NCBI GenBank assembly: GCA_002989075.1
Contig: PSQN01000010.1
Location: 434,001 to 498,000, forward strand
Direction of reading: 5' to 3'
DNA from: Arthonia radiata
Lineage: Eukaryota; Ascomycota; Arthoniomycetes; Arthoniales; Arthoniaceae
DNA: 64,000 nt
Below are positions 2,548 to 38,723 of this stretch, piece by piece (position 1 is the first letter of the stretch; every line of letters starts with the position of its first letter). The notes under the pieces were generated by a model. That model saw only the letters and a program-made list of their open reading frames with translations, ran no database searches and was not told the DNA's origin. A program made the translations under genes and the position numbers.

Positions 2548-4527
2548 TCACCACTCTAGTACCGCCTTGATAACAGTCCCACTATGTAGTGCAGCTAGAG
2601 CATCCTTCCACGCCTCTGCTGGGTAGCGCTTTTCGAGCCGGTCCAGAGGGAGCTGCCCTGTCCGATACCAGTCGATCAGCATGGCAATGCTGTGATCTGG
2701 GTCTGCGTCTCCCTGAATGGTGCCGACAAAGTGGATGCCATCTGCATTTGTACGTCAGCCTATATGGTATTGGCGACTTATCCGTTCGGCACAAGAAAGA
2801 CAAGGTGGAAAAATACCACAACCTGGTCATAGGTGACGGTTGTGGGCTTCGAAGCGCTATGCTTACCTTTCATGTGCTCTGGAAGACCTATCGAAAGCGT
2901 AGAGCCAGGGCCACTATTAGTGATTTGTATTACAGTACCAAGCGGACTGACCGCTTTGAGAGCCTCTTGCAATACTGCTGGAATACCAGTAGTATCCACG
3001 ATTATGGAGGGTCCGAGAGGTAGCGGCGCAAAGTGATCGTACGGTGGCAACATCCGTATCTGCGAAGCCAAGCTATTGCCACTGCTTACGCTGCTGCTAT
3101 TGATTTGATGTGTAACGCCGAATTCCTTGGCTTTGTCCAGCCTGGACTGAACTAGATCGATGCCGACAATAGTCTTTACTCCACGAATACGTGCTGCCTG
3201 CGAGAACAAACACGTAAGCTCAAACGTGTCATTTTAAGTTGCTGTTATCGCCAAATAACAGCGCTAACTCCACAAAGGAACCACTTCTAGCTTACCGTGA
3301 CCGCAGATATACCCACCGCTCCGAGTCCAATGACGGCGACTGTATCGGTCACCTCTGGCTTCGCAACGTTGGTGATAGCACAAGCGCCTGTTTGAACGCC
3401 GCAACCTGAACGTTTGAAAGCTCGTGAGCTCGGGAAAGACTGCGAGCTGTGGGAACATGAACTCACCAAGCGGAGCGAAGATGCTCATTTCAGCCTGCTC
3501 GCGAATAAGGAGCTTTGCATTGACCACGGAACTCTCCTTCACTGATGACAAGAATGGTTAGTCTGATTATATTTAAAGCAACGGTTCCGTTTCCGCATGC
3601 TGACCAAGAGCAATACTGCTGAAGCTACTTTGCCCGAAGTAACCTGCTGGAATGATTCGCTTGCGTCCAGTTCCGTCATCGAGTAGTCTCCCATCTTCAC
3701 GGTCATTGGCAAGCATGTAATTGGGTTCGCAAGCATGTATCGTTAAAGGGTTGTTTTGACGGCAATGCGCGGGGTGACCCGTATGACACATATAGCAAGC
3801 TAGAGCAATAGGGGTCAGCACAATGCATTCCGAGAGAGCACATAAGCGGGTGTATTTTGCTTTCAAAATGCGCGTATTCAATCACCGCCTCCTGCTTCAA
3901 CGACTGAAAGCCCTTGGAAAATGAACAGAAGAAACAGTCTGGAGACGGCAGACTTACCCCCGCATCGCGGGAATGACAAGAGCACTGGATCTCCAACCGC
4001 GCATCGACGGACTGATGGATGTGTCCTTAGCACAATACCGGAACCTGGCTACGCCGTTAGAACACTATAAGGAAAGAAACATCAAGCGATCGCGAAGTGG
4101 AGATCTGACAACGGTATGGCTGTGGTGAGAATTGATGGTATAGAAATGCTAGGCAACGGATCGTAGCCGTGCTAGCGTTGCTCATCTCATATGTGCTAAT
4201 GATGTTCTGAGAACCGTAGCAAGTGACCCTATGCTAAGCTTCTAGAACTACACCTGGCTCAACCTTTGCGCGTCTCTGTGGACTAGATACGCGATGCCGT
4301 AGGCGCCACTAAGCGGCTTAGATGGATGACTGACCTTCATGACCCAAGATGCGCGGGCATATGCCACCAACGTTCTGCACATCTGTATGACAAATGCCAG
4401 TCGCTACTGTCTGGACCAGTAGCTCGTGTTCTCCGGGTTCTCGTATTAGCACATCCTCTAATCGCCACTCACTCGGCGAGTAGGTAACGAGGGCTTTGCA
4501 CGGCAGTGCATAGTCTGCAGGCTTCAT
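2548..4527 (-). CDS. Zinc-dependent alcohol dehydrogenase (aryl-alcohol type)
   Basis: Seven exons can be joined (4527-4335, 4044-3958, 3799-3605, 3541-3467, 3405-3296, 3197-2867, 2741-2548) into a 394-residue medium-chain dehydrogenase, the usual family length. It would oxidise an alcohol or reduce an aldehyde with NAD(P). Catalytic zinc ligands are visible in GICHTD and GHEG and in the GCGVQTG motif. The structural-zinc loop reads CGACYMCHTGHPAHC, and the Rossmann motif is GLGAVG. The start at 4527 precedes the conserved N-terminal strand. Intron 1 is long (290 nt). Intron 2 (3957-3800, 158 nt) is a copy of a repeat found twice more at 38.04-38.35 kb and splits the structural-zinc loop between its first Cys-Gly and Ala-Cys. 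The substrate cannot be told; similarity is to aryl/benzyl-alcohol dehydrogenases. Confidence 0.85.
3800..3957 (-). repeat. Introner-like element copy 1, acting as an intron
   Basis: On the minus strand the sequence begins GTAAGTCTGCCGTCTCC and ends with the branch-like GTGCTGAC 19 nt before TTGCTCTAG, so it has complete splice signals. Removing it joins codons GGG G and CT TGC into the dehydrogenase motif CGACYMC. It shares ordered blocks (TTCTTCTGTT, GGGCTTTCAGTCGTT, GCTCTCTC, GCATTGTGCTGA) with two copies at 38043-38352. Other introns in this window do not show these blocks. Introner-like elements are near-identical spliceosomal introns that multiply in some Dothideomycetes; assignment here rests on this window only. 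Confidence 0.8.
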
Positions 4528-35670: not shown

Positions 35671-36403
35671 GATGGGGACTTTGTTTCGGTGGGTAGGGGT
35701 GGTGTTTGATGCATAGCGATGGCGTAGCGGGAGTCATGGCGGCATATACACAGCGTCGGCGATTTAGGACTACTATATAATGCAAACATTGCAGACCACG
35801 TTCAGCTTAGATCTTGAAGTTCAACATAAACATCTCTGCGCAACACGCTTTGCTGAATGTCGATGTGCGCTTCAGGTCTTCTGAGCAGCGGCCATGCACA
35901 GGCTGCTGTTTCGTGTCCTCCAAGCAAGATGTCGAACAATGCCGATGCCGAAAGGGTCGCGAGATACCAGAATCGTGTACGATACAGCTTTGCTTTGTAG
36001 TTGCACTCATACTTAGCAAGAAGACTGTTCCCATGAGGCCAGCGCTCATCCAACTCACAGAAAAGCTATGGGAACGCGCCGCTCTGCCGACGTAGCAAGC
36101 ATTCTCACTCATCATTAACAACTCAGGGGCGACTCCGCAGGAAAACTCACCCTCAAGAAAACTTCGGGCCTGTCACCTCACCCAGGAAATCTAATTCTCG
36201 CCTGAAAGAGTCAACGGCACTCTGGCGCAGTCAGTCGCCCGCCTGCTTCAGCTTCTCATATGATAGCATTCGTTGGCGACTTGCTTTTGCTTGCTTGATG
36301 ATGATTTAGGTCTGATGCCGATGTAGATTGAAGGCTGTAGTGAAACAGGAACATATTGTGGGCGAACCTAGACTTCTGAAAGCATGTCGAGGATGCGGCC
36401 GAG
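35671..36403. other. Gene-poor spacer
   Basis: After the Utp10 stop only short, motif-free frames occur on both strands, for example about 100 codons on the minus strand at 35807-36121 that resemble nothing known. Confidence 0.35.
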
Positions 36404-36577
36404 GAGGGAGTGTGGCTGGAAGAGAGCATAGCTAGGAAAGGAAATGGCTGAGAGAGAGCGTAGCTAGGAGAGAGCGTAGCTGGGAGAGAGCGTAGTTGGG
36501 AGAGAGCGTAGCTGGGAGAGAGCGCAGCTGGGAGAGAGCGTGGCTGGGAGAGAGTGTGGCTGGCAGAGAGTGTAGCT
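36404..36577. repeat. Minisatellite, 16-bp unit
   Basis: A unit close to GAGAGAGCGTAGCTGG is repeated head-to-tail about ten times with small changes (cgtagctag, cgtagttgg, cgcagctgg, cgtggctgg, tgtggctgg). The copies are best kept in the middle and fade at both ends, as expected for slippage or unequal exchange. It lies outside any supported gene. Confidence 0.85.
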
Positions 36578-36895
36578 ATCTGACAGCTTAACTAGCGGAG
36601 ACGACACTTAGATTGCTGGGCAGAGCGCGCTGCCAGCAGAGAAGACAGCTGAGCAATGCTTATACTCAGAGGCAGATACTAGACACTGTTTTGTATCTAT
36701 CTTTGATTTGGCCATTTTGAGTTCAGGAAAGAAGATCGGGTTCCATGGACCTCTTGCAGATGGCGTAGATCCCGACGGTAGACAAGCTAGTATGAGGAAC
36801 GATACACGTTTGGACTAGAAAGCTCTCTGATGCATTACATGGATTTGCATTAGTTGTAGTCGAACAACTATACTTGATAACCGCTAACACAGCCC

Positions 36896-37451: not shown

Positions 37452-37820
37452 CAGTGAAGTTAATGGAGCGGATCTGGCCTTACCGCCACTAATACCGCTA
37501 GGATCCAATCCGTCTGCCCAAAACCTGGACCAGAACCGGCAGCTCCAATAGGAACCGGATACTATTGGGGAACTATCAGGCGCGCGTTAAGTACGCGCAT
37601 TTTTGCGTTTTGGCCTGTACGCAAAGCTAGTAAGGGGATAAAACTGTACTAGACAAGGTAGTATACCTTAATAAACCGATCTAGAACTAGACTGATAGCA
37701 GAACTATCTAGTAAAGGCTAGAACTAAACCGTACTATTACCAGGATAGCAAAAACTGAACCGCCTAAAGCGGATCGGTATCCAGAACCGTGTATTAGGAA
37801 CCGCTCTATTAACTTCACTG
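37452..37820. mobile_element. hAT-like MITE, 369 bp
   Basis: The left end reads CAGTGAAGTTAATGGAGCGG and the right end is its inverted complement CCGCTCTATTAACTTCACTG, with a single mismatch over 20 bp. An exact 8-bp duplication GCTCTGAG flanks both ends. The inside has no coding capacity, so this is a non-autonomous miniature element mobilised in trans. The exact duplication and near-perfect ends suggest a fairly recent insertion. It lies within a reading frame, which is continuous if the element and one duplication are left out. Confidence 0.88.
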
Positions 37821-37828
37821 GCTCTGAG
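37821..37828. repeat. Right 8-bp target-site duplication
   Basis: This is the exact second copy of GCTCTGAG, next to the right terminal inverted repeat of the MITE. Confidence 0.85.
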
Positions 37829-37999
37829 CAGTGGCGGGTGACGGCAATCGATGAGGAGTTCATAGCTGCCAATATCGAACCCTCGGCGCTTACTAGGGAG
37901 TATCCCAGAGCGCTCTTTAATACGCATGGACTACCTTGCCGTGGCAAGAAGTTTGACTTGACCAATCCGGAGAGTCTGGAACGCCATGTTCGTTTTTAA
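37829..37999 (+). pseudogene. 3' piece of the MITE-split unrecognised gene
   Basis: The frame right of the MITE reads QWRVTAIDEEFIAANIEPS, then TREYPRALFNTHGLPCRGKK and NPESLERHVRF before a TAA. It looks like real protein (balanced composition, charged and hydrophobic alternation) and is in phase with the open stretch left of the MITE (KSLWATCSE). The family is not recognised. Whether it is the true C-terminus or only an exon end is unclear. Confidence 0.35.
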
Positions 38000-38042
38000 C
38001 CACTGGACATCTTGTGCGGGTCGAGATGAGTTTCTGGCAGTG

Positions 38043-38196
38043 AAGCGCTACGTTTCAGCACAATGCTTCCTGAGAGAGCATATACACGAGTTTGTTTCGC
38101 TTTCATAACGGGCTTGTTCAGACAGCGCCTCCATCTGAACGACTGAAAGCCCATCAAAACATAACAGAAGAATCGGTGTGAGGGCTGTAGCTTCAC
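38043..38196 (-). repeat. Introner-like element copy 2
   Basis: On the minus strand this copy begins GTGAAGCTACAGCCCTC and keeps the family blocks TTCTTCTGTTATG, GGGCTTTCAGTCGTT, GGAGGCGCTGTC, ATGCTCTCTCAGG and GCATTGTGCTGA. Its 3' end (AGCGCTTCACTG) lacks the clean CTCTAG acceptor of copy 1, so it may no longer splice. It abuts copy 3 head-to-tail. No minus-strand gene was found around it. Confidence 0.75.
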
Positions 38197-38723
38197 TTAG
38201 AGCGATATGTGTCAGCACGATACACCCACGAGAGCACACACACGAATATGTTTGGCCTTCGAAAAGGGCGTATTCGGACAGCGCCTCCATTTTCATGACT
38301 GAAAGCCCCCGAATGAACAACAGAAGAATAAGTGTGGAGGCTGTAGACTTACCAGAGCATCTTGAGTCGGAAATTAATTTTGGTCAAGCGTTGGCGCTGT
38401 CACTGTCTTATCTCGAAAGTGGGCATGTCGATGTTGAAGAGCTGGCGTTCTATCTAGAGCACGCGAAGCGCGGAACCTCCATGTATGGATGGGAGCTCTT
38501 ACGAACGACAGTCCTCACTGCTAGATCGCTAGCGTATACCATCATTTGCAGTATTGACACTCCACTATGGGGATTTGAGACGCGAAGATCAGTGCCGGGG
38601 GGTAGTGTTCCGCGGTATATCAGTAGAACCAACGTTGCTCGTGCATCGTGCAATGCTAGAGATAGTGTTGCGCAGTTGCTGCCTCGAGCAGTCGATTGTT
38701 CGACCGACGACAACGAGATCTGA
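38178..38723 (+). pseudogene. Unrecognised ORF next to introner-like copies
   Basis: The frame is open for 181 codons, but its first 60 lie in antisense to introner-like copy 3. From about 38355 the sequence looks protein-like (NFGQALALSLSYLESGHV, VEELAFYLEHAKRGTSMYG, ELLRTTVLTARSLAY). It could be a further piece of the split gene upstream or a separate fragment. No family is recognised, and no convincing start or splice partners were found. Confidence 0.25.
38196..38352 (-). repeat. Introner-like element copy 3
   Basis: Minus strand: starts GTAAGTCTACAGCCTCCAC, contains TTCTTCTGTTGTTC, GGGGGCTTTCAGTC, GGAGGCGCTGTCCG, TGTGCTCTCGTGGG and ends GTGCTGACACATATCGCTCTAAG. Donor, branch and acceptor are all present and the length (157 nt) equals the spliced copy 1. 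Its last G is the first G of copy 2, so the two are in exact tandem. The flanking minus-strand sequence is not recognisably coding. Confidence 0.78.

Follow-up and report, generated by a model that had tools for sequence, protein, structure and literature searches.

The second intron of a zinc-dependent alcohol dehydrogenase (ADH) gene of Arthonia radiata raises the question of whether it is an ordinary intron that belongs to its gene or one copy of an intron that multiplies in the genome and, if the latter, how such copies are made. The first-pass annotation of the surrounding DNA, a stretch of 64,000 nucleotides analyzed in full (hereinafter, the window), had described it as an introner-like element (ILE). 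The features discussed below are as follows.

2548..4527, minus strand: zinc-dependent ADH host gene (own model: 7 exons, six introns, 394 aa)
3800..3957, minus strand: introner-like element, a family 1 copy forming ADH intron 2 (phase 1), 158 nt (139 bits, model positions 1-157)
3952..3957, minus strand: 5' splice site GTAAGT (sequence and exon model)
3814..3819, minus strand: likely branch site GCTGAC (T138, G139, C140, T141, and A143 invariant in 24 aligned copies)
3800..3802, minus strand: 3' splice site TAG (sequence and exon model)
38197..38352, minus strand: family 1 copy, 5' member of a tandem pair, dimer F (repeat search, alignment, and profile)
38040..38196, minus strand: family 1 copy, 3' member of the same pair (repeat search, alignment, and profile)

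Read on the minus strand, intron 2 (3957..3800) has the form GTAAGT...GTGCTGAC...CTCTAG, and the coordinates, donor, and acceptor that the first-pass annotation had assigned to a 158-nt intron all hold. Its claim that excision rebuilds the coding sequence is likewise borne out: the joined exons of the 2548-4527 model encode an intact protein of 394 amino acids in which the CGACYMCHTGHPAHC zinc loop spans the phase 1 junction of intron 2, and the alignment with PDB 5tnx runs over this junction without a gap. Profile comparison of the remaining ADH introns with the models of the two introner families described below yielded no match. This includes intron 1 (window 4045-4334, minus strand), which at 290 nt is about as long as an introner pair, the other introns being 61-158 nt long. 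Full-length ADH homologs with about 56% identity are present on metagenome contigs and may be uninterrupted open reading frames (ORFs). Paralogs sought as a control for intron position included none close enough among the matches.

The two homologous sequences reported to lie 34 kb away are indeed related to intron 2, as repeat search and alignment indicate, but they are the two halves of a single head-to-tail pair (38040-38352). At the seam of this pair, TAA|GTGAAG is found instead of the expected TAG|GTAAGT, and the outer acceptor is lost, with CTTCAC replacing CTCTAG. Neither a codon-usage gene caller nor Pfam revealed a recognizable gene around 38040-38352. Two open frames on the plus strand (window 37715-38723) flank and overlap the pair, which is antisense to both. 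A Pfam search of both ORF pieces found nothing, and the frames are possibly a broken gene. Elsewhere in the window, at positions 36402-36593, a purine-rich 16-nt unit of the GGGAGAGAGCGTAGCT type is repeated head to tail about 12 times. An Rfam scan of the window gave no match at the gathering score.

Size, anatomy, and host genes of family 1

We searched the genome (33,499,693 bases in 16 contigs) by several approaches. A query consisting of intron 2 with short flanks (window 3790-3965) produced 33 other matches (E ≤ 3.6e-8), and an approximate family 1 consensus produced at least 46 (40 scored among 75 candidates). A pattern of 19 nt derived from the 3' end, allowing up to 3 mismatches, hit 66 sites compared with 10 in a reversed control; because the control itself gave 10, the 13 sites found by pattern only were left uncounted. 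Scanning 50 merged stretches (221 kb) with a profile returned 67 matches at E ≤ 0.001, of which 65 were kept as family 1, given that two (C16:1625331 and C1:2427233) fit the second family better. Together with nine BLAST matches outside the scanned stretches, family 1 thus numbers at least 74 distinct copies, a lower bound, located on contigs C1-C7 and C9-C16. The first-pass annotation had held that its reading falls if the genome contains no copies beyond the three known to it, and the count goes far past that number.

Homology among the copies extends from the donor GT to the acceptor AG, and the flanks are unrelated except where copies abut. Most copies begin and end at splice sites. The earlier proposal to inspect the ends gave a similar picture, with GT/GC..AG retained at 38 of the 56 loci; at the other 18, the family ends show decay, a shift, or truncation. 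In the 24-copy alignment, the branch region TGCTGAC hardly varies. Pairwise identity among 63 copies (one of which belongs to family 2) averages 71% and reaches 95% for the best pair, so that family 1 mixes younger and older copies. Two copies, C14:408134 and C14:417526, are altered in length at the same place, just before the GAATGCATTG segment, by 7 additional nt in one and a CT microsatellite in the other.

A family-wide conserved RNA fold was looked for and not found: RNAalifold gave no strong consensus structure (-2.0 kcal/mol), and the single recurrent hairpin, paired in 78% of cells, lacked covariation. Fold strength averaged z = -0.43 over 55 copies. Some consensus-like copies reached z values of -1.8 to -3.5 (C13:750374, -2.45) and others were near 0 or above, and fold strength was weakly correlated with how closely a copy fits the family model (Spearman -0.21, p 0.13).

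Coding continuity was assessed after removal of the copies. The junction falls within a Pfam domain in 6 of the 10 spliced proteins scanned, namely, Helicase_C, RNA_pol_Rpb1_5, midasin AAA lid, adh_short, Glyco_hydro_43, and ATG22; in the remaining four, it lies outside any domain and is evidence neither way. The spliced helicase aligns with human DDX3X (PDB) without a gap over the junction, and the spliced Atg22 had no match in PDB. We rely on domain continuity because the open-frame test discriminates poorly from shifted junctions: with at least 30 codons required on both sides, 34, 28, and 22 of the 56 loci passed for the true, +1, and +2 junctions, and with at least 20 codons, 41, 43, and 38. 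The codon-usage strand caller placed 30 of 56 loci in sense and 2 in antisense orientation, with 24 unclear; 13 of the 30 sense loci had been used to train the caller, and without these, the ratio is 17 to 2 among 43 loci. This sense bias could also stem from selection.

The sequence evidence is best accounted for if the family 1 copies are genuine spliceosomal introns, most of them in sense orientation. At least 74 copies, homology bounded by splice sites, and unrelated host genes support the introner-like reading of intron 2, which we assign to a mobile family of spliceosomal introns, the fungal ILEs, with a probability of about 0.97.

Tandem arrays and related pairs

A second, related family, with units of about 142 nt that start with GTAAGTCTCAGAGC, was met on reading onward from C10:1219250; the corresponding pattern occurs at 147 sites with at most 1 mismatch, compared with 12 in the control. 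Exact head-to-tail pairs or trains are present at 11 of the 55 family 1 loci. Family 2 pairs are found at C1:1006688 (-1006984), C1:2357222, C7:647873 (-648172), C13:1957579, and C15:1954075 (-1954357), these five having been picked because both units appeared in search lists, and two pairs (C9:2191861-2192157 and C1:2427232-2427530) combine the two families. A train on C10 consists of at least 7 units of both families, some of which match weakly and were joined by eye. The region C10:1217830-1220905 opens with an AT-rich stretch followed by this train, a piece resembling an aldo-keto reductase, and further family 2 remnants. A Nup188-type gene (C15:1952572-1954357) apparently contains a family 1 introner and, 1.3 kb downstream, a family 2 pair, that is, three mobile introns.

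The seam between neighbors reads AG|GT in 11 of the 14 arrays inspected, the exceptions being AG|GC, AA|GT, and AG|AT. This pattern identifies complete abutting introns, and an interpretation as [D1,2] stwintrons was rejected on this ground. When whole arrays are removed, the junction lies inside an ATG22, an Ank_2, and a Nup188 domain; in the other arrays scanned with Pfam, no domain covers the junction. The canonical GTAAGT is retained by 6 of 14 inner donors compared with 13 of 14 outer donors (Fisher p 0.013), in a comparison whose rows are neither independent nor unbiased, given that dimers C, D, and F (see below) are related, five arrays were list-picked, and some ends were set by eye. 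Twelve of the 14 inner donors still start with GT. The acceptor AG is present in 13 of 14 inner and 12 of 14 outer positions, so that the inner acceptors are no more decayed. Array boundaries are uncertain at C1:2427 and C13:1957579. Bit scores compared by eye within arrays indicated no age order, neither side being regularly older.

Three pairs are similar to one another as pairs: dimer C (C13:2111094, in what is presumably an ANCHR-like gene), dimer D (C14:915642, Atg22), and dimer F (C6:472040, the pair in the window). Between these loci, the 3' members are 0.87, 0.82, and 0.80 identical and the 5' members 0.82, 0.80, and 0.77. In a tree of 63 copies, the 3' members of C, D, and F form one clade (support 100/98), and the 5' members form another with moderate support (87/82), to which the monomer C14:417526 is the sister (95/80). 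A whole-dimer query recovered the other two dimers at 84 and 82%, followed by the next dimers at 74 and 73%. The 1.2-kb flanks of five dimer loci, including these three, showed no blastn match between loci. Independent assembly of the same pair three times is made less likely by the tree, which contains not a single copy of the 3' subfamily outside the pairs. The relationships of C, D, and F appear best explained by copying of the pair as one unit. A different pattern was observed for the dimers C13:750218 and C10:1143037, which have a young 5' member in common (93.6%) and differ in the 3' member (71%); this likeness limited to the 5' side fits separate insertion beside a resident copy.

Candidate routes of copying

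We lean toward an RNA route, with the excised intron RNA as the copying intermediate and reverse splicing or an equivalent process as the means of return: seamless insertion, abutment at seams, sense orientation, and movement of pairs all fit an RNA intermediate. Under this scenario, the excised RNA would seamlessly enter AG|G-like sites through spliceosomal reverse splicing, or through an equivalent RNA-to-DNA route, and the insertion would subsequently be fixed in DNA. The end of a resident copy (TAG|G) would be a fitting target for the next insertion and, because it offers this sequence, trains would grow there and leave the mRNA unchanged. A pair excised from the first donor to the last acceptor, a mode of removal suggested by the less intact state of the inner donors, would become a new, longer mobile unit. 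We propose only tentatively, as a rather doubtful extension of the RNA route, that insertion at seams builds trains with zero-length exons and that a pair excised in one step turns into a longer mobile intron.

The bases at the insertion sites bear on these routes. Among 38 copies, the donor is preceded by AG in 21 and by G in 33, and AG|G occurs in 14; AG upstream of the donor is also usual in ordinary introns. Direct repeats at the copy ends have a mean longest run of 2.89 compared with 2.84 in mismatched pairs. Target-site duplications of at least 3 nt were found in 1 of 38 copies (2.6%, control 2.4%) and those of at least 2 nt in 4 of 38 (10.5%, control 5.2%), too few to interpret. Terminal inverted repeats amount to 7.6 of 20 matching positions compared with 7.2 in shuffled sequences (n = 38). 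Because both duplications and inverted repeats stay at or close to control values, insertion of family 1 is taken as seamless.

These values weigh against DNA-based introners of the kind known in algae, in which a nonautonomous, miniature inverted-repeat transposable element (MITE)-like element carrying splice sites moves by cut-and-paste or copy-and-paste. Such a mechanism also sits poorly with copies both ends of which are splice sites, with abutment at the splice junction, and with the two-family profile table, where no nesting of one copy within another was seen. We consider DNA-based spread unlikely, even though signs of it are described for most introner families outside the ascomycetes in PMC9860276, a number of copies, the window pair among them, are located outside recognized genes, two loci are called antisense, and a tandem pair could move as a unit without splicing.

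Slightly more unlikely, in our estimate, is uptake of excised intron RNA, or of its cDNA, into DNA double-strand breaks, without reverse splicing, which has been proposed for Hypoxylaceae stwintrons (PMC8469720 and PMC12403724). Break capture is compatible with seamless insertion, and a pair could be taken up as one RNA. By itself, however, it leaves the AG|GT abutment in 11 of 14 arrays to be produced either by breaks that favor such sites or by purging selection.

An array could also form when one intron duplicates locally through the AG-G microhomology at both of its ends, instead of by insertion beside a resident copy. The ends do have this short microhomology in common, and two neighbors in the C10 train are each other's closest relatives (85.5%), so that local duplication occurs as well. 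As the source of the arrays in general, we find it improbable: in the six two-unit family 1 arrays measured, the two partners are 61-81% identical to each other and occupy ranks 3 to 59 among relatives, and some arrays mix both families. Finally, an old, ordinary intron with similarity acquired through gene or segment duplication has nothing in its favor and next to no chance of being the correct explanation, in view of 74 copies in unrelated host genes, the unmatched 1.2-kb flanks at five dimer loci, and no close ADH paralog among the matches.

Comparison with known systems and significance

Fungal ILEs are known from Dothideomycetes, namely, Fulvia fulva, Dothistroma septosporum, Zymoseptoria, and their relatives (PMC4457414). 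Like these, the elements of A. radiata are multicopy spliceosomal introns in unrelated genes, with full-length homology, GT..AG ends, and decay with age, and family 1 resembles them further in carrying neither duplications nor inverted repeats. PMC8469720 attributes an AG/GY insertion preference of ILEs to van der Burgt. The differences are the host class, Arthoniomycetes; a conserved, stable family-wide fold, which was not found here; and, judging from the published descriptions, the exact tandem trains and the pairs apparently copied as a unit. Protein affinity agrees with this class: the ferric reductase encoded in the window is 83% identical to that of Coniocarpon cinnabarinum, followed among named hits by Alyxoria at 59% and Chrysothrix at 56%, and both Coniocarpon and Alyxoria belong to the Arthoniomycetes. 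Collemare 2015 (PMC4457414) describes two ILEs in one gene, 145-626 bp apart, with an exon between them.

A parallel for a two-intron unit that spreads seamlessly as one piece comes from other ascomycetes, the [D1,2] sister stwintrons of Hypoxylaceae/Xylariaceae (PMC8469720 and PMC12403724). In those, the donor of the outer intron is interrupted by the inner one between G1 and U2, whereas here complete introns follow each other head to tail without an intervening exon. The Hypoxylon stwintrons are traced, in PMC8469720, to an ancestor with terminal inverted repeats of 45-55 nt, unlike family 1, in which such repeats were not found. Drosophila ratchet points of recursive splicing are similar in that an acceptor is directly followed by a donor inside an intron, but they are located in long host introns, whereas here the site is the seam of two mobile introns (PMC8605326).

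Family 1 also shares with introners at large likeness over the whole width and copying into many genes (Gozashti 2022, PMC9860276). The same source describes ascomycete introner families without duplications or inverted repeats, and the terms tandem, nested, and back-to-back are absent from its main text. In the literature searched, we found no earlier report of exact introner trains or of two abutting introners that had been copied together, and a search for introners in Arthoniomycetes returned no paper.

How fungal introners are copied is unsettled, the ascomycete families being outliers without the marks of DNA transposons (PMC9860276). Exact trains, and pairs apparently copied as units, tell about the insertion site and the size of the moving piece, which single copies do not. 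RNA data for A. radiata are public (PMC5887037) and could show whether pairs are removed in one step or two. The present findings may extend the range of introner hosts by a class of lichen-forming fungi. If one-step mobile pairs are real, the excised intron RNA would be the mobile form, and short mobile introns would grow into long ordinary ones. The self-copying of an intron family and the apparent movement of some of its copies in pairs bear on the origin of new introns.
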